DNA of 61,200 bases from Candidatus Stoquefichus sp. (lineage in GTDB: Bacteria; Bacillota_I; Bacilli_A; Erysipelotrichales; Coprobacillaceae). This document shows, one piece after another, positions 2,679-19,218 of this stretch. The translations under genes and the position numbers were made by a program. The DNA is taken from assembly GCA_021768625.1 (NCBI GenBank), contig JAETUM010000010.1:1-61200 (forward strand). The letters run 5' to 3'. Numbering within the stretch: position 1 is the first letter of the stretch; every line of letters starts with the position of its first letter. The notes beneath the pieces were generated by a model, which was not told where the DNA came from, did not search any database, and saw nothing but the letters and a program-made list of their open reading frames with translations.

Positions 2679-2975
2679 ATGGAAGTTATGTTTACAATTG
2701 TAGGGATTAATCATTATTTTGATAGTGATGACTTAAGAGCAAATCAAGAAATTATATTAAGAAAGGAACTAGATAATAAGATAGATGAAGAAGCTATTGT
2801 TGTTTATACAAATGATTTGAATAAAGTAGGTTATATAGCGAATAGTGTTAATACAAGAGCTAAAGGGACTTATTCTGCTGGAAGACTGTATGATAAAATA
2901 GATAATGAGGTCGTGGCAAGAGCATTAGTTATTTTTCATAATACAGCAATAGGAGTCATTCATATTAATGATTAA
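2679..2975 (+). CDS. Stand-alone HIRAN-domain protein
   Basis: 98 aa, essentially one domain. FTIVGINHYF, then LRANQEIILRKELDN and DEEAIVVYTNDLNKVGYIANS follow the HIRAN pattern: G-x-x-x..., L-R-x-G-x-x-L-x-L-x-x-E-x-x-N, AI-x-V, and G-Y-I. HIRAN modules are fused to SNF2 helicases such as HLTF, where they bind DNA 3' ends at stalled forks. Bacteria also encode single-domain forms, often near restriction or other DNA-handling genes. Ribosome site AGGAGGG at 2664 precedes the ATG. It lies 150 bp before cas9 on the same strand. A role as an accessory to the CRISPR locus is inference from position only. Confidence 0.7.
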   Translation: MEVMFTIVGINHYFDSDDLRANQEIILRKELDNKIDEEAIVVYTNDLNKVGYIANSVNTRAKGTYSAGRLYDKIDNEVVARALVIFHNTAIGVIHIND

Positions 2976-3031
2976 AAGAATATTCAAGATTAATTCCTAT
3001 TATTAATATGATTATATTGGCTTGAATTATA

Positions 3032-3048
3032 TTATCAATGATTGATAA
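3032..3048. promoter_or_regulatory. Perfect 17-nt palindrome upstream of cas9 (candidate operator)
   Basis: TTATCAAT-G-ATTGATAA has perfect 8-bp arms. A second, imperfect dyad (ATTAATGA ... TCGTTAAT, 3053-3074) lies just downstream. Both fall 40-80 bp upstream of the putative cas9 -10 box, where an activator or repressor would bind. The regulator is unknown; the neighbouring WYL protein is the obvious candidate. Confidence 0.45.
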
Positions 3049-3086
3049 AAGTATTAATGAATATTATCGTTAATGAGTAAGAATGG

Positions 3087-3115
3087 TGTCTTTTATTAAG
3101 GAATAATGTTATAAT
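3087..3115 (+). promoter_or_regulatory. Putative cas9 promoter
   Basis: A consensus -10 (TATAAT, 3110-3115) has a weak -35 (TGTCTT, 3087-3092) 17 nt upstream. A weak -35 with upstream dyads suits an activator-dependent or regulated promoter. The ribosome site AGGAGG follows at 3135-3140. Confidence 0.5.
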
Positions 3116-3147
3116 AAGGGGGCTAAATGGATGAGGAGGATATTTTT

Positions 3148-6100
3148 ATGGGGAAATTAGTACTAGGTTTAGATATTGGAATTACATCTGTAGGTTATGG
3201 AATCGTTGATATAGATGAAAATAGATTTGTAGATTATGGTGTAAGATTGTTTAAAGAAGGAACAGCAGCTAATAATGAAGATAGAAGAGTTAAAAGAGGA
3301 GCGAGAAGATTAAAAAGAAGACAAAAAAATAGAATTAATGATATGAAAAATCTTCTTGAAAAAGAAGGGATATTAAATAAAGATTACAAGGTATTAAATA
3401 ATCCTTATGAAATAAGGGTAAAAGGATTAAGTCATGAATTATCTAATGATGAACTTGTTTGTGCTTTATTGCATATTACTAAACATAGGGGAAGTAGTTT
3501 AGAAACATCTGCTGATGAAGTTAAAGATGATGAAGTTATGAAAAACGTTTTAAATAATAATCAAAAGTTACTTAGTGATGGTAAATATATTTGTCAAGTA
3601 CAACTTCAAAGATTAAAAGAAGAAGGTAAAGTACGAGGGTTTAATAATAATTTTAAAACAGATGATTATATAAAAGAAGTCACTCAAATTTTATCATGCC
3701 AAAATATCTCTAAAGAGACTTCTCAAAAAATCATTGATATTATAAAGAGAAAAAGAGCTTATTATGAGGGACCTGGAAGCGAGAAATCACCAACACCTTA
3801 TGGAAGATGGATTGATTTTGGTGTTGAACCTATAGATTTAATTGAAAAGATGAGAGGAAAATGTAGTGTATGTCCAGATCAATTAAGAGCACCTAAGAAT
3901 TCATATAGTGCTGAATTGTTTAATTTGTTAAATGATTTAAATAATCTATCTATAAATCATGAAAAGATAACAATAGATCAGAAAAAGGATATTATTGAAT
4001 TTGTAAAAGAAAAAGGTAATATTACAATAAAACAATTATGCAAAATTTTAGATGTTGATATTGAAAATATAAGTGGTTTTAGAATTGATAAAAATGAGAA
4101 ACCACTACTTACAGAATTTAAGGGTTTTAAAAAAGTAAAAAAAGTTTTTGATGAATATCAAAATATAGATTATTTAAATGATACTGATATTGTAGATGAT
4201 ATTATTGATGTACTTACTAAATCAAAAGGTGTAGAGGAAAGAAAAAACACTTTAAAAGAAAAATATCCTCATTATTCAGATCAACTTCTTTTAGACTTAT
4301 CTAAAATAAAAGGTATATCACAATATCATTCATTGTCATTTAAAGCTTTAAGAATGTTAAATAAAGAAATGGTAACATCTGAATTAAATCAAATGCAATT
4401 ATTACATGAATTAGATTTATTTGATAAAAATAGAAAATCGACAAAAGGACAAAAAAGAATATATGCAGATGATGAGGCAATTCTCTCTCCTGTTGCAAAA
4501 AGAGCACAACGTGAAACATTTAAAGTAGTTAATAAATTAAGAGAAATCTATGGTGAATTTGATTCTATTGTTATTGAGACAACAAGAGATAAAAACACCA
4601 ATGAACAAAAGAAACGAATTGGAGATATACAAAAGTATTATGAGAACCAAAATAAAGAAGTAAATAAATTATTAAAAGAAAAGGGATTTAATCCAGAGAC
4701 TATTAATAATAAAACAAAATTAAAAATACGTTTATATTTAGAGCAAGATTGTAAAAGTGCATACACATTAAAACAAATAGATTTAAATACTCTTATTTAT
4801 GATGAAAATGCATATGAAATAGATCATATCATACCCATTTCTGTCTCTTTAGATGATTCAATTAACAATAAAGTATTAGCAACTCATAATGAAAATCAAG
4901 CAAAAGGAAATTTAACACCGATTGATGCTTATTTAAAAGGAAAATTTAATGATATGGGGTGCAATATTGATGAGTATAAATCTGTTGTTTTAACTAATAA
5001 AAAAATAAATAGAAAGAAAAAAAACTATTTGTTATATGAAAAGGACATTACTAAGTTTACAAATATTCAAGATTTTATTGCTAGAAATTTAGTTGATACA
5101 AGTTATGCAAATAGAGTAGTAATGAATACTTTAAGTCATTATTTTAAAGATAACAATATTCCAACAAAGGTCCATACAATTAAAGGTAGCGCTACAAATG
5201 TATTTAGAAAACGTATAAATCTTGAAAAGGATAGAGAACAAGATTATATGCATCATGCTATTGATGCTTTAATTGTTGCCTCAATAAAAAAACTTAATTT
5301 ATTAAATACATACTTAGGAAAATACAATATTAATGAATTATATAATGAAGAAACAGGAGAAGTATTTCCAGTTGGAGAAGATAAAGAACTTCTTGATTCT
5401 AAATATATTGAATTCATTCAAAATTTAAAAGCAATACATGAAGAATCTTATCGTTATTACAATGGATTAATTCAAAAAGAAAAAATGCAATTTAAACCTA
5501 TTAAAATATCTCATAAGATTGATACGAAAGCTAATCGTCAAATTTCAGATGAAACAATTTATAGTACACGTAAAGTGGAAGATAAAGATATGGTTGTTAA
5601 AAAATATTCAGATATACATGATCCGAAATTTGATAAATTAACTAATGATATTATTAATAATGATAACTTGGAAAGATGGTTGATGTATAAAAATGATCCA
5701 CAAACTTTTCAAATAATACAGGATATCATCTTAAATCATTTTAATACTTATAAAAAAGATAAAGATATATATTCTAAAAAAGAGAAAAAGGGAAAAGTTA
5801 TTTATAATTTAAAAGGATCAAACAATCCTCTTGCTGAGTATAAAAAAGAACATGGGAAAGTAAGAAAATATTCTAAGAAAAATAATGGACCAGAAGTAAC
5901 AATGATGAAATATACAGATGGACAATTTAATAGTGGAATAGATATTTCTAATAATTATCAATCTGAAAATAAAAAGGTGGTTTTATTACAAGTTAGTCCA
6001 TATAGAACAGATTTCTATGTTTCTCCAGAAGGGAAATATAACTTTGTTACTGTGCGTTATAAAGATGTTTTTTATAAAAAATCTATTAATAAATATACTA

Positions 6101-12684: not shown

Positions 12685-12693
12685 GTGAATGTT

Positions 12694-13875
12694 ATGAGTC
12701 ATATTATGTTTTTTTGTATTCCTGCACATGGACACTTTAATCCTACTGTTGAAGTTGTTAAAGAACTAGTTAAACGTGGACATTATGTTAAATATTATCT
12801 AACAAGCGAGTTTCAACAAAAAATAGAAGATACACAAGCTGATTTTATTTCAATAGATGATTATATGCCACCAGCACCAGAAGATCTTGATCAAAAAGTA
12901 GGTAAAGATTTTGCTTCATTAATAGAAATGGTTGCCGATACAACACTTTCTTTAGAATCATTTATTAGCAAAGAAATCAAGGAGTTTCATCCTGATTGTA
13001 TTGTTTCAGACTCATTATGCTTTTGGGGTAAATTATTTGCTAAAAAGTATCAAATTCCATTTATTTGCTCTACAACTTCTATTGCTTTTAATCAGTATAC
13101 AGCCCGATTAATGAAACAAGGTTTTAAAGAAATGTTTTTAATGTTAAAAGGAATGCCAAGAATTAATAAAAAGATAAAATTATTAAATCAGCATGATTAT
13201 CATATAGATAACTTTGTTTCTATTATACAAAACGATAATGAAACAAATACAATAGTTTATACATCAAGACAATTTCAACCTATGGTTGAAACATTTTCTG
13301 ATCGCTATCTTTTTGTAGGACCATCTTTAAATAAGTGTCGTTTTTCTTCAAAGAAAAAAGATACACCACTTATTTATATATCATTAGGCACTGTATTAAA
13401 TCAAAATATACCATTTTATAAACAATGCATAGAAGCATTAAAAGATGAAGATTATGATATTGTTATGTCAGTTGGTAAAGATACAGATATATCTCAATTA
13501 GAACCTATACCATCATCTTTTCATATATTCCCACGAGTCAATCAATTAGAAGTTTTATCAAATGCAGATGTTTTTTTAACACATTGTGGAATGAATAGTG
13601 TGAATGAGTCACTTTATTATGGTGTGCCTATGGTATTATTTCCTCAACATTCAGAAGAAAATGCAGTTGCTATATGTGTTGAAAATGTAGAAGCAGGGTT
13701 ACGATTAAAGAAGCCACAATCTTCTCATATCAAAAAAGCAATCAATGATGTTATCATAAATAAGTCTTATAAGAAAAATGCAGAAAAAATGAGTTATGAC
13801 TTTCAACAGTATCAAGCAGATAAGATGGCATCTGATTTTATTGAAAAAATAATTCAAGAATCTAAAAAAATATGA
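12694..13875 (+). CDS. MGT-family (GT1) glycosyltransferase
   Basis: 393 aa, GT-B fold, UDP-sugar-dependent, probably cytosolic. The N-terminal acceptor lobe starts HIMFFCIPAHGHFNPTVEVV, the usual HGHxNP signature of macrolide-type transferases. The C-terminal donor lobe has ISLGTVLNQN and VFLTHCGMNSVNESLYYGVP (THCG-N-S-E signature), then FPQHSEENAVA. Such enzymes glycosylate macrolides, flavonoids or other small hydrophobic molecules, often as detoxification. The ATG at 12694 follows AGGTGA; a GTG at 12685 directly after the abrB stop has no room for a ribosome site. It is co-transcribed with the AbrB-like gene. Confidence 0.9.
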   Translation: MSHIMFFCIPAHGHFNPTVEVVKELVKRGHYVKYYLTSEFQQKIEDTQADFISIDDYMPPAPEDLDQKVGKDFASLIEMVADTTLSLESFISKEIKEFHPDCIVSDSLCFWGKLFAKKYQIPFICSTTSIAFNQYTARLMKQGFKEMFLMLKGMPRINKKIKLLNQHDYHIDNFVSIIQNDNETNTIVYTSRQFQPMVETFSDRYLFVGPSLNKCRFSSKKKDTPLIYISLGTVLNQNIPFYKQCIEALKDEDYDIVMSVGKDTDISQLEPIPSSFHIFPRVNQLEVLSNADVFLTHCGMNSVNESLYYGVPMVLFPQHSEENAVAICVENVEAGLRLKKPQSSHIKKAINDVIINKSYKKNAEKMSYDFQQYQADKMASDFIEKIIQESKKI

Positions 13876-14000
13876 TTTTTTTAATAATATAATTCATTAT
13901 GAGTGTACAAAAGACTGTTAATCTCAAATTAAAGATGGTATAATAGTATTAATGGATATGTGAGGAATATAAAGCAGTTGCTTTGGTGGAGGAAATTAAT

Positions 14001-15677
14001 ATGAGTCTTGAAAATCAAAATATATCAGTTGACCAATTGTGTCATGTTATAGATTTGTTGAATCCAACTATTGATGATTATATTTATCTTTGTGATTTTC
14101 AACATGACTTTTTTTATATTTCACCTCATGCTACTGAAAGATTCTCAATGACAAAGAATTGTTTTTATGGATTTGATGAAGGTCTTGAAGAATTTGTTTG
14201 GTCTGAAGATTTACCAGCTCTTCGTCAAGAAATACAAGATATTATTGTGAATAAAGAACGTACAAATCATAATATGGAATATAGATGGAGAGATCAACAA
14301 GGACAACCTGTATGGATTAATTGTAGGGGTGTTATTGTAAGAGATGATTCAAATCCTTTATATATGATTGGATGTATTAATGAAATAGGTGAAAAACAAA
14401 AGGCTGATAATATTAGTGGATTATTAGGTGAATCAAGTTTAAAAGACTATATTGATCGATTATCATCATATAAAAGTCATGTTTATTTATTACGTTTAGG
14501 AATTGATGACTTTGGTGCTATTAATGAAAAATATGGTGTTGAATATGGAAATACAATTATTAAGAAAACTGCTGAATGTATAGCAAGATGTTTATATGCT
14601 AATCAAAAATTATATAGGATGATAGGTGATGAATTTATTGTGGTTGATCCATCATCAAAGAATATAGAAGATATTATTGGATTATATAAAGGTATTAGAC
14701 AAACAATTGATTATTTTGTTGAAGAAAATCATTATAAGGCTATTTATACAATATCAGGTGGTATATTCTGTGTTGAAAATATTAATGATTATATTTATTC
14801 TGATATTATGAAATATACAGAGTTTGCTCTTAATGAAGCAAAGATGAAGGGTAAGAATACATACTACATTTTTAATGATAATGATTATCAAAGATTTTTA
14901 AAGAGAAGAAAACTGACTCAAGCTTTAAGAAAATCAATTAATCAAAATTTTGATCGTTTTGGAGTGTATTTGCAACCTTTATTTTATCCAGATAGTAATG
15001 AATTGTTTGGAGCAGAAGCATTGATGCGATTTGATACAGATGAATTTGGAGCTATAGCACCTAAAGAATTTATACCAATATTAGAAGAAACTGGATTAAT
15101 TATTCCAGCTGGAAGATGGATTATTCATCAATCACTTTTAATGTGTAAAGAAATTCAAAAATCTATACCTCATTTTAAAATAAGTATCAATATATCGCAT
15201 ATACAAGTTACAAAGAGTGATCTGCTTTCTGAACTTTTATTAGCAATAGATGAATATCAAGTTGATCCATCAACAGTTATTGTTGAATTGACAGAAAGTG
15301 GAATTTTGGAATTAGATAAGAATATTAATAAAGTTTGGACACAGTTGAGTGAAAAAGGTGTTAAATTAGCATTAGATGATTTTGGAACAGGATATTCTAA
15401 TTTCCATTATCTCAATGATTTAAAGCCAGATATTATTAAAATTGATCGTTCATTTACATCAAAAGCTGTTCAAAGTGAATATGATTATAAGTTGCTTTCA
15501 TTATTAAGTCATATGGTTCACCATTTGAATCTTAAAATATGTATTGAAGGTATTGAAATAGAAGAAGAACGTGAAATCATAAAAACTTTAGCACCTGATT
15601 ATTTCCAAGGATTCTATTTTGGAAGACCAAGTGCATATCAACAATTTGTTGATATGTTTGTAAAACGAGAAAATTAA
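14001..15677 (+). CDS. PAS-GGDEF-EAL cyclic-di-GMP phosphodiesterase
   Basis: 558 aa, no transmembrane segment, so a cytosolic sensor. A PAS-like region (~30-135) ends with the PAC-type WRDQQGQPVWINCRG. The GGDEF domain (~150-290) is degenerate: the signature reads MIGDEF, so it may bind GTP but probably does not make c-di-GMP. The EAL domain (~305-550) is complete: EALMRF, INISHIQ, ELTESG, LDDFGTGYS, IKIDRSF, EGIE and YFQGFYFG. Net activity should be c-di-GMP hydrolysis. The start at 14001 has GGAGG 8 nt upstream; the frame is open from 13983 through TTG and GTG codons. It is followed by a terminator and a diguanylate cyclase gene, forming an opposing pair. Confidence 0.92.
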   Translation: MSLENQNISVDQLCHVIDLLNPTIDDYIYLCDFQHDFFYISPHATERFSMTKNCFYGFDEGLEEFVWSEDLPALRQEIQDIIVNKERTNHNMEYRWRDQQGQPVWINCRGVIVRDDSNPLYMIGCINEIGEKQKADNISGLLGESSLKDYIDRLSSYKSHVYLLRLGIDDFGAINEKYGVEYGNTIIKKTAECIARCLYANQKLYRMIGDEFIVVDPSSKNIEDIIGLYKGIRQTIDYFVEENHYKAIYTISGGIFCVENINDYIYSDIMKYTEFALNEAKMKGKNTYYIFNDNDYQRFLKRRKLTQALRKSINQNFDRFGVYLQPLFYPDSNELFGAEALMRFDTDEFGAIAPKEFIPILEETGLIIPAGRWIIHQSLLMCKEIQKSIPHFKISINISHIQVTKSDLLSELLLAIDEYQVDPSTVIVELTESGILELDKNINKVWTQLSEKGVKLALDDFGTGYSNFHYLNDLKPDIIKIDRSFTSKAVQSEYDYKLLSLLSHMVHHLNLKICIEGIEIEEEREIIKTLAPDYFQGFYFGRPSAYQQFVDMFVKREN

Positions 15678-15681
15678 AAAA

Positions 15682-15712
15682 GATAAGTGAACAAAAACTT
15701 ATCGTTTTTGTT
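15682..15712 (+). terminator. Terminator after the EAL gene
   Basis: GATAAGT ... ACTTATC (15682-15703) followed by GTTTTTG. Confidence 0.75.
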
Positions 15713-15753
15713 ATAAGAATATGAAATATAGATATATGATGGAGAAATGAAAT

Positions 15754-16590
15754 ATGAGAAGAGATGAAATTGTTTCTTTAGCAAAGCATTTAAGTGTAAT
15801 ATTTGATATTGTAAGAATTGTGGATGTAAGAAGCATGGATCAATATCTTTATACAGATGAAGGTACATTTAAAAAAGAATCTTATTCTTGTTATGGAATA
15901 TGGAAAAAGACAAATAGGTGCGATAATTGTATAGCAACAAAAGCATTAGTTCAAAAAACAAAGATTTCAAAGTTTGAGTTTGTTGATAATGACATATACT
16001 ATGTAATAGCAATGTATATTGAGATTGATGATGTACCACTTGTTTTAGAAACAGTTTTACATGTTACATATGAGATTTCATTTGACGCTTATGGTCAAAA
16101 TGAATTAGTCCAATCTATTTTAAATACAAATAAAAAGATTTATGAAGATGCATTAACTGGAGCTTATAATAGGCATTTCTATGAAGATCAACTTATTGGA
16201 CTTTATGATGACTTTTCTATGGTTGTTGTTGATGCAGATGAATTTAAAATGATTAATGATACTTATGGACATGAAGCGGGAGATATGGCTTTACGTGCAA
16301 TTGTTCAAACGATTCAGTCATTTATACGAAGCAATGATATTGTTATTCGTTATGGTGGTGATGAATTTGTCATTGTGTTTAGAAATATCCCTAAAGATGT
16401 CTTTGCTCTTAAATTAGAAAAGATTAGAATGGCAATTAGTGAGATAGTTGTTGAAAAATATCCATCTATGCATATAACTGTAAGTATGGGTGGAATTAGT
16501 GAAGCTGGAAAAGTAGAAGATTTATTTAATAAAGCAGATCATTTACTTTATCAAGCAAAAAAAGAAAAGAATAAAGTCATTATTCAATAG
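15754..16590 (+). CDS. GGDEF diguanylate cyclase with Cys-containing sensor domain
   Basis: 278 aa, soluble. The C-terminal GGDEF domain (~125-278) is intact, with RYGGDEFVIVF and an RxxD inhibitory site (RSND) five residues before it. It should make c-di-GMP with product inhibition. The N-terminal ~115 residues form a small PAS-like domain with three closely spaced cysteines (CYGIWKKTNRCDNC, ~48-61). These could bind metal or a cluster, or respond to thiol state. GGAG precedes the ATG. It sits next to the EAL phosphodiesterase, so the two genes probably set local c-di-GMP levels. The signal is unknown. Confidence 0.9.
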   Translation: MRRDEIVSLAKHLSVIFDIVRIVDVRSMDQYLYTDEGTFKKESYSCYGIWKKTNRCDNCIATKALVQKTKISKFEFVDNDIYYVIAMYIEIDDVPLVLETVLHVTYEISFDAYGQNELVQSILNTNKKIYEDALTGAYNRHFYEDQLIGLYDDFSMVVVDADEFKMINDTYGHEAGDMALRAIVQTIQSFIRSNDIVIRYGGDEFVIVFRNIPKDVFALKLEKIRMAISEIVVEKYPSMHITVSMGGISEAGKVEDLFNKADHLLYQAKKEKNKVIIQ

Positions 16591-16599
16591 CGTAAAACT

Positions 16600-16629
16600 A
16601 TTAACAAGATTTCTTGTTAATGGTTTTTT
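16600..16629 (+). terminator. Terminator after the GGDEF gene
   Basis: ATTAACAAGA paired with TCTTGTTAAT, then GGTTTTTT. Confidence 0.85.
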
Positions 16630-16659
16630 ATCTTAAAAATGTAAAGAGTGGTGATAATA

Positions 16660-19218
16660 ATGAAAAAAACAGTGATAGGAATATTAGCACATGTTGATGC
16701 AGGAAAAACAACTCTATCAGAGAGTATGTTATATTTAGCAGGAAGTATAAGAAAGCTAGGGAGAGTAGATCATGGAGATGCTTTTTTAGATTATAATAAA
16801 CAAGAAAGAGATAGAGGAATTACTATTTTTTCTAAACAAGCTATGTTTGAATGGAATGATGTAGAAATGACTTTGATAGATACACCAGGACATGTTGATT
16901 TTTCCTCTGAAATGGAAAGAACATTACAAATTTTAGATTATGCTATTATTGTTATTAATGGGATAGACGGTGTCCAAAATCATACAAAGACAATTTGGAA
17001 TTTATTGGACCGTTATCAAATTCCAACATTTATATTTTTAAATAAAATAGATTTACTACAAACAGATAAAAATCATCTTATATTAGATTTACAAAAAACA
17101 ATAGATGATAAATGTCTTGATTTTACTCATTTTAATAACGAAACATTAGAAGCTATTGCATTAAACGATGAAGATTTACTTAATCAATATTTAGAGACAC
17201 AAACATTAACACATTCATCTATACAAGAAGCTATATATAATAGAAAAGTTTACCCTTGTTATTTTGGCTCAGCACTTAAAATGGATGGAGTCAAAGAGTT
17301 TCTTGATAATATAACTTCATATATCAAAGAAAAAACATATCCTCAAGAATTTGGCGCAAAGGTTTATAAAATTTCAAGAGATGAACAAGGACAACGCTTG
17401 GTACATATGAAGATTACAGGAGGGAGTCTTAAAGTTAAACAACAACTTCATCATGAAAAAGTAGATCAAATTCGTCAATATACAGGAAGTAAATATCAAA
17501 TGGTAGAAGAAATCAATGCAGGAAGTATCTGTGCAGTGAAAGGGTTAAAAGATATACAATTAGGGGAAGGTTTAGGAATAGAAACAAGTTTCTATCAACC
17601 ATTTCTTGAACCATATATGAATTATCATATCATTTTACCTAAAGATTGCGATAAACATGCCATGCTTCATAACATTAAACAACTTGCTGAAGAAGATCCA
17701 AACTTACATATTCAATTTTCTCATCAAAATGAAGATATTATGATTCAATTAATGGGAGAAATTCAAATAGAAATATTGAAAAAAACAATATCTGATAGAT
17801 TTCATGTGGATGTTGAGATAGATCAAGGAAATATTATTTATAAAGAAACAATTGCTCAACCAGTAGAAGGTATAGGACATTTTGAACCTCTTCGTCATTA
17901 TGCAGAAGTTCATTTATTGTTAGAACCTGGAGAAAGAGGAAGTGGTTTACAATTTTTGACAAATTGTAGTGAGGATATTTTAGATAAACATTGGCAAAAC
18001 TTAATTCTTACACATTTAAAAGAAAAAAATCATAGAGGAGTCTTAACAGGTTCTTCTATTACAGATATGAAAATAACATTATTAACTGGAAAAGCTCATT
18101 TAAAGCATACAGAAGGTGGAGATTTTAGGGAAGCGACATATCGAGCTGTAAGACAAGGATTGAAATCAGGGCAATCAGTTTTATTAGAACCTTATTTCCA
18201 ATTTCGTTTAGAAGTGTCTCAAGAATATTTGAGTAAAGTCATCTTTGATATAGAAAAGATGAACGCAAACTTTACCATTTCAGATACTATAGAAAATATG
18301 ACAGTGGTAGAAGGACATGCTCCTGTGAGAAAAATGAGAAATTACCAACAAGAAATTGTTCATTTAACGAAAGGACAAGGAAAATTATATTGTACATTAA
18401 GTGGTTATCAAGAATGTGAAGAACAAGATAAGATTGTAGAAAGTATCCAGTATGATAGTGAAACAGATCTTGAGAATCCAACGGGATCAATTTTCTGTTC
18501 TCATGGTGCAGGTTTTTATGTGAAATGGGATGAAGTTAAAGACTATATGCATATTGATAGTGAATGGAATAAGCGTAGCCATCAAGAAAAACAAGCCTAT
18601 TATTCATCATCACTTCATGATGATGAAGAGTTAGAAGAAATTTTTACACGAACTTATGGAACTGTTAAACGAAGATTATCTGATAACTTTCAGTATAAAA
18701 AAGAACCCCAACAACAAGTTAATGTTGTCAAGCCTTTGCCAGAATGTTTATTGGTTGATGGATATAATGTTATTTATTCATGGCCTGAACTAAAAGAATT
18801 AGCTGAAGATCATTTAGATGTTGCACGTACACGTTTGATTGACATCTTAGGAAACTATCAGGGGTATAAACAATGTGTACTGATTATTGTTTTTGATGCT
18901 TATAGGGTAAAAGGAAATATTGGAACAGTAGAACAATTGCATAATGTTCATGTCGTATATACAAAAGAGGCTCAAACTGCTGATATGTATATAGAACGTG
19001 CAACACATGAATTAAGTGAGAAATATAATGTTGTTGTAGCGACATCAGATGCTCTAGAACAAATGATTGTTATTGGGCGAGGGGCAAGACGTATGTCATC
19101 TCGAGAGTTAAAATTAGAAGTCGAATCACTTGTTAAGATAAAAAAAGAAGAATTTGAAAGAAAGCAAGAAAGAAATCATAATTTATTATTAGAAGATGTG
19201 AAAAAATACCAAAGTTAA
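16660..19218 (+). CDS. TetM-like ribosomal-protection GTPase fused to a YacP/Rae1-type NYN ribonuclease
   Basis: 852 aa. Residues 1-~690 are an EF-G-like translational GTPase of the TetM/TetO group: G1 AHVDAGKTT, G2 region RGITIFS, G3 DTPGHVDF, G4 NKID, G5 GSALK, then EF-G domains II-V. From ~695 a PIN-like NYN_YacP domain follows: LLVDGYNVIYSW, LIIVFDAYRV, TADMYIERA, VVATSDALEQ. Those acidic positions are the ones conserved in YacP. B. subtilis YacP (Rae1) is a separate ~170-aa protein that cuts mRNA in the ribosomal A site. The fusion would therefore bring an A-site GTPase and an A-site nuclease to the same ribosome. Whether it confers tetracycline resistance cannot be told. The start at 16660 follows GAGTGGTG; a GTG at 16648 is less likely. 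Terminators flank it, so it is a single-gene unit. Confidence 0.9.
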   Translation: MKKTVIGILAHVDAGKTTLSESMLYLAGSIRKLGRVDHGDAFLDYNKQERDRGITIFSKQAMFEWNDVEMTLIDTPGHVDFSSEMERTLQILDYAIIVINGIDGVQNHTKTIWNLLDRYQIPTFIFLNKIDLLQTDKNHLILDLQKTIDDKCLDFTHFNNETLEAIALNDEDLLNQYLETQTLTHSSIQEAIYNRKVYPCYFGSALKMDGVKEFLDNITSYIKEKTYPQEFGAKVYKISRDEQGQRLVHMKITGGSLKVKQQLHHEKVDQIRQYTGSKYQMVEEINAGSICAVKGLKDIQLGEGLGIETSFYQPFLEPYMNYHIILPKDCDKHAMLHNIKQLAEEDPNLHIQFSHQNEDIMIQLMGEIQIEILKKTISDRFHVDVEIDQGNIIYKETIAQPVEGIGHFEPLRHYAEVHLLLEPGERGSGLQFLTNCSEDILDKHWQNLILTHLKEKNHRGVLTGSSITDMKITLLTGKAHLKHTEGGDFREATYRAVRQGLKSGQSVLLEPYFQFRLEVSQEYLSKVIFDIEKMNANFTISDTIENMTVVEGHAPVRKMRNYQQEIVHLTKGQGKLYCTLSGYQECEEQDKIVESIQYDSETDLENPTGSIFCSHGAGFYVKWDEVKDYMHIDSEWNKRSHQEKQAYYSSSLHDDEELEEIFTRTYGTVKRRLSDNFQYKKEPQQQVNVVKPLPECLLVDGYNVIYSWPELKELAEDHLDVARTRLIDILGNYQGYKQCVLIIVFDAYRVKGNIGTVEQLHNVHVVYTKEAQTADMYIERATHELSEKYNVVVATSDALEQMIVIGRGARRMSSRELKLEVESLVKIKKEEFERKQERNHNLLLEDVKKYQS

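Follow-up and report, generated by a model that had tools for sequence, protein, structure and literature searches.

We show here that the 61,200-nucleotide stretch of DNA under analysis (the window) encodes an EF-G-type GTPase that is followed, in the same reading frame, by a linker and a NYN_YacP (Rae1) nuclease domain. We propose that in this product an orthologue of Rae1 is permanently attached to a translational GTPase that binds the ribosome, and that the protein would cut mRNA at the ribosomal A site; we assign this proposal as a whole a probability of roughly 0.55. The gene and its product comprise the following parts, all on the forward strand.

16646-16654 (+): Shine-Dalgarno-like AGAGTGGTG, just 5' of the ATG at 16660 (sequence)
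16660-19218 (+): fusion protein, GTPase plus NYN_YacP nuclease, 852 aa, a single frame from the ATG at 16660 (ORF and Pfam)
16672-17328 (+): G domain, aa 5-223 (Pfam PF00009, GTP_EFTU, 1.2e-51; motif conservation)
17353-17568 (+): EF-G domain II, aa 232-303 (PF22042, 6.6e-6; strands in the predicted model)
17608-17823 (+): EF-G domain III (EFG_III), aa 317-388 (PF14492, 2.5e-10)
17830-18171 (+): EF-G domain IV (EFG_IV), aa 391-504 (PF03764, 1.1e-17)
18091-18153 (+): domain IV tip loop III, aa 478-498, KAHLKHTEGGDFREATYRAVR (mean conservation 0.89)
18178-18426 (+): EF-G domain V (EFG_C), aa 507-589 (PF00679, 1.5e-19)
18427-18594 (+): family-specific C-terminal module, aa 590-645, SIFCSHGAGFYVKWDEVKDYMH (alignment; present in NYN-less relatives too)
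18595-18735 (+): flexible linker that includes a short, conserved helical motif (low pLDDT; alignment)
18748-19194 (+): NYN_YacP / Rae1 nuclease domain, aa 697-845 (PF05991, 2.8e-50)

The strand opposite to the gene carries many stops, and the G domain retains its G1 motif (AHVDAGKT), T55, GIT, DTPGH, NKxD and SALK. The domain search suggested by an earlier note on this DNA recovered the EF-G domains, with domain II marginally under its cut-off (26.6 bits against 27), as well as PF05991 at 171 bits against a curated cut-off of 24.6; the note's claim of an intact GTPase and a complete NYN_YacP domain in one frame is thereby confirmed. Assembly chimerism or chance fusion is ruled out by the recurrence of the same architecture in public genomes, where a search that took one genome for each species found the complete fusion in 80 of the 80 best relatives, from Lachnospiraceae, Oscillospiraceae, other Clostridia and Erysipelotrichia. 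Within the window's own family, the fusion is present in 10/10 sampled genomes. Thirteen phage matches to the NYN domain fall in unannotated records that are most likely host DNA, and a phage-borne origin was set aside.

The architecture itself is already known, as the same note had cautiously allowed: Atkinson 2015 (PMC4342817) described Tet proteins of ten Clostridiales species that had gained an RNase domain of the YacP-like NYN type, and NCBI carries the name 'translation factor GTPase family protein'. The order of the published fusions, an EF-G/Tet-type GTPase followed by NYN_YacP, is that of the window protein; the account consists of one passage restricted to Clostridiales, with antibiotic resistance guessed at and no tests. 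Our literature search, which did not reach the main Rae1 and TetM cryo-EM papers, found no experimental study of the fusion. New beyond the 2015 account are the extension to Erysipelotrichia, a single fused clade, mutual exclusion with separate Rae1, a non-Tet domain IV tip and a series of naturally reduced forms. In a GTPase tree of 114 proteins, all surveyed fused proteins, those of Clostridia and the window alike, form one clade (SH-aLRT 98) that is sister to a NYN-less clade (99) and that includes a single nested NYN-less protein, from a Ligilactobacillus salivarius megaplasmid. The window protein itself belongs to an 18-member Erysipelotrichia clade (SH-aLRT 100). Three genomes from another family of the window's class (G302, G305 and G158) carry copies nested among Clostridia, beside Fusibacter, and some horizontal transfer must therefore have occurred; as judged from the tree, inheritance has been mostly vertical.

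To the window protein, the nearest characterised GTPases are TetO and TetM. An AlphaFold2 model built from 64 homologues (mean pLDDT 84.7) is confident over the GTPase and mostly confident over the NYN domain, and structure comparison matches its residues 1-625 to both EF-G and TetM (for TetM 3j9y_w, Z 30.9 and rmsd 10.9 over 604 residues), in keeping with a five-domain EF-G-like GTPase fold. The earlier description of the protein as TetM-like thus holds as to fold and descent; it does not extend to the residues by which Tet ribosome-protection proteins are defined. Every Tet NCBIfam cut-off is missed (442.9 against 775 for NF012153, 300.7 against 1100 for NF033148), as is the curated EF-G score (306.7 against 659.4 for TIGR00484); the source genome has two further EF-G-type genes at other loci, one of which is an ordinary EF-G by its sequence. 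Conservation along the protein is highest at the domain IV tip KAHLKHTEGGDFR (mean 0.89), which across the fused family features the highly conserved motif KHTEGGDFR. Where TetM loop III reads SP(V/A)STPADF, the window protein has KHTEGGDF, with K482 at the position of TetM Pro-509 and lysine there in 95/98 fused proteins; the loop III proline of TetM is described as touching C1054 within the tetracycline site (PMC8161019). Because the curated cut-offs fail and the tip lacks the TetM proline and bears a motif of its own, the GTPase is probably not a tetracycline-protection protein, and the window protein further differs from TetM and TetO in its extra C-terminal module, linker and nuclease.

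These data bear directly on the speculation in PMC4342817 that the fusion confers antibiotic resistance by combining Tet-type ribosome protection with RNase activity. Such a role would fit the kinship with TetO and TetM and the tetracycline-resistance label that NCBI attaches to some copies, yet the missed cut-offs, the substituted tip, the non-sporadic presence of the gene throughout the sampled family and its mostly vertical inheritance make it highly improbable, and the earlier suggestion that the protein might rescue the ribosome from an antibiotic finds no support in them. We argue that core genes of gut Lachnospiraceae and Erysipelotrichia are mislabelled where they carry the name 'tetracycline resistance', and that such labels would inflate resistome counts. 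The fused protein of Agathobacter rectalis (L191, 4971-7772) is one that NCBI names 'tetracycline resistance protein', although its homologue in the window scores far below the Tet cut-offs.

Rae1 is characterised by translation-dependent cleavage of mRNA in the A site. The NYN domain of the window protein aligns to B. subtilis YacP (PDB 5mq8/5mq9) over 131 residues (2e-26), with D700, D746, D775 and D797, its catalytic residues, corresponding to Rae1 D7, D53, D81 and D104. The likeness extends from the NYN domain and the four aspartates to the presence of one copy per genome, a count that the fusion itself makes up in the surveyed genomes. B. subtilis Rae1 is, however, a separate protein of ~170 aa, while the window domain occupies the C-terminal end, after 690 aa of GTPase and linker, of a protein of 852 residues, which we accordingly class as a Rae1-domain fusion rather than a classical Rae1. 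The four catalytic aspartates are invariant in 99/99 fused proteins, in 51-52 separate ones and in six reduced proteins; loss of acidic residues in homologues, which the earlier note had named as one observation that would count against its reading, is thus seen in none of the fused copies. In close pairs, dN/dS is as low for the NYN domain (0.05-0.12) as for the GTPase (0.03-0.14 in domain IV), as compared to 0.13-0.64 in the linker. The domain IV tip and the nuclease are therefore both under strong purifying selection, and a decayed nuclease is ruled out by the invariant aspartates together with the low dN/dS. Aromatic residues are fixed in the fused NYN domains at two sites beside catalytic aspartates (B. 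subtilis positions 55 and 83), unlike in B. subtilis Rae1, and both sites vary among separate Rae1 proteins; a clean H55Y/R83Y switch upon fusion was weakened after 40 more separate YacPs were added.

The same domain could in principle act on stable RNA, trimming rRNA or tRNA on the ribosome or in precursor form, a role once proposed for NYN domains (cited in PMC4342817) and one in which the GTPase could sense subunit state. We consider such a maturation factor improbable, as Rae1, the nearest relative studied so far, lowers the stability of mRNAs in a way that depends on translation (PMC10100781).

No separate Rae1 that might do the work alongside the fusion was found. In the source genome, the single PF05991 locus is the fusion itself, and the separate full-length rae1 that the earlier note had raised as a counter-argument was not found there by PF05991 search. 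No distinct separate YacP was detected in any of 93 fused genomes (27, 50 and 16 from three surveys), where the second, identically scoring PF05991 match of R. flavefaciens FD-1, which lies on a different contig within a frame of 360 aa, is read as an assembly duplicate. Among 299 evenly drawn genomes of a neighbouring phylum, 161 have PF05991 above the cut-off, with 18 carrying the fusion, 143 PF05991 without the fusion and none both (Fisher 6e-6, uncorrected for phylogeny). These counts leave out below-cut-off matches (G003, G217, G229 and G299), two of which were assigned by eye to other proteins, an 896-aa frame to DNA polymerase I (G299) and another to a histidine-biosynthesis-like protein (G229). 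Replacement of a separate Rae1 gene by the fusion thus appears well supported. Because no acidic residue is lost from the 99 fused copies and no separate rae1 accompanies the fusion, ribosome-directed mRNA cleavage is probably the best reading of the protein.

The literature searched does not settle how Rae1 enters the A site or how it distinguishes paused ribosomes from moving ones. Its fusion to a GTPase of the ribosome suggests that a translational GTPase recruits it, an idea that is directly testable. In the mechanism that we propose, the GTPase part, of EF-G fold and Tet-related, would bind at the factor site when the A site of the ribosome is empty, and its domain IV tip (KHTEGGDFR) would probe the decoding centre. 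GTP hydrolysis would then lead to withdrawal of domain IV, whereupon the NYN domain, on its long flexible linker behind domain V, would reach the A site and cut the mRNA in or next to it, so that decay would follow for the stalled message and ordinary rescue for the ribosome. The mechanism presupposes that domain IV and Rae1 act one after the other, since they would be competitors for the A site. We infer ribosome binding, the order of hydrolysis and cleavage, stalled ribosomes as the target and, by analogy with B. subtilis Rae1, mRNA as the substrate; delivery of the nuclease may be gated by the GTPase. Tentatively, and at somewhat less than even odds, we extend this to a single-protein, GTP-gated A-site mRNA cleavage that would replace free Rae1 in gut Clostridia and Erysipelotrichia, with hydrolysis swapping domain IV for Rae1. 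In the AlphaFold2 model, pLDDT falls below 50 at linker residues 644-654 and 667-690, and with a pTM of 0.65 and a poorly ordered linker the placement of the domains relative to each other is not predicted. Between these two low-pLDDT segments lies the conserved helix motif (D/E)EELxxIFxRTYG (aa 654-667), whose residues E657, I661 and T665 are kept in 91/98, 85/98 and 78/98 fused proteins, respectively.

Around the gene, two c-di-GMP genes lie in a row immediately 5' of it (PAS-GGDEF-EAL and GGDEF, 13983-16590, +), and a convergent DnaQ-like exonuclease gene lies downstream. A macrolide-family glycosyltransferase gene 2.8 kb upstream (12685-13875, +) scores 299 bits against a cut-off of 260 for TIGR01426 and does not reach the specific macrolide-inactivation models. 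A terminator-like hairpin of 15 pairs (16594-16627, +) is separated from the start codon by no more than 32 nt, so that a promoter would hardly fit between them; transcription from the GGDEF gene might read through the hairpin, or the hairpin might serve as an attenuator. A tet(M)-like leader attenuator was considered and rejected, as hairpins are not enriched in the family (10/111 against 20/380, p 0.17).

Further insights come from lineages in which the two halves occur apart. In genus g11, of the same order as the window (36 genomes examined), most species with a match have the full-length fusion of ~810-870 aa, and two species, which have a neighbouring gene in common, carry frames of 603 and 615 aa that keep the G motifs, linker helix and NYN domain.

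L218, 5752-7563: fusion without EF-G domains IV and V, g11 (intact G motifs and NYN)
L034, 7843-9690: fusion without EF-G domains IV and V, g11 (intact G motifs and NYN)

The deletion of domain IV with retention of the nuclease in these two species is a further argument against a resistance function. Six g11 species have open frames of ~200 aa that begin near the linker helix and consist of the helix and NYN domain alone, and no GTPase was recognised in the DNA next to them. Five of the six proteins group in a single clade, and the closest relative of that clade that is not reduced is a congener's full-length protein. All reduced forms keep the catalytic residues, and in the g11 lineage it is thus the nuclease that selection keeps. 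Conversely, NYN-less 'translation factor GTPase family' proteins (NCBI; Ligilactobacillus and Bacillales-like genomes) share the GTPase, tip loop and C-terminal module of the fusion but end after the module, without linker or NYN domain. Their Bacillales-like orthologues, from one clade, co-occur with a separate Rae1 in 10/10 genomes, an association that is weak because separate yacP may be nearly universal there; bacteria with both proteins would be the place to look for a pair acting in trans. A strict Rosetta-stone rule, in which the NYN-less GTPase would occur only with separate Rae1, fails in two genomes of the window's own phylum (G082 and G251) that carry the NYN-less GTPase but lack any PF05991, and in G251 a genuine TetM-like gene is present besides the NYN-less copy, which again argues against resistance. 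With nuclease lacking an adjacent GTPase in six species and GTPase lacking NYN in Ligilactobacillus, G082 and G251, coupling of the two is not obligatory: it is a tendency, not a law.

This natural dissection favours, to some extent, the main rival to tethered delivery, namely a fusion of convenience in which the NYN domain alone does Rae1's job and an independent GTPase, for example a back-up translocase or a recycling or LepA-like factor, shares with it only the ribosome as address. Apart from the NYN-only proteins of g11 and the GTPase-only ones, such independence would suit a linker that varies from 65 to 152 residues between the end of the C-terminal module and the first active-site aspartate. 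Against it stand retention of the fusion across two classes with few losses, the fixed aromatics at positions 55 and 83, which hint at adaptation to the fused state, and the lack of any recurrent gene neighbour across ~100 loci that might explain a chance joining; we therefore regard it as rather unlikely, and retain tethered delivery as the preferred reading. The linker helix is retained in the natural NYN-only proteins. In one genome (G262, L041), the GTPase (2943-5081) and the NYN domain (5036-5518) occupy overlapping frames that are a single frame in a congener, a split (2943-5518) that reflects sequencing error, a pseudogene or a frameshift. The NYN-less copy on the L. salivarius megaplasmid (L190, 4986-6920) has as neighbours an additional rpsN (S14) and a gene with a putative role in metal homeostasis.
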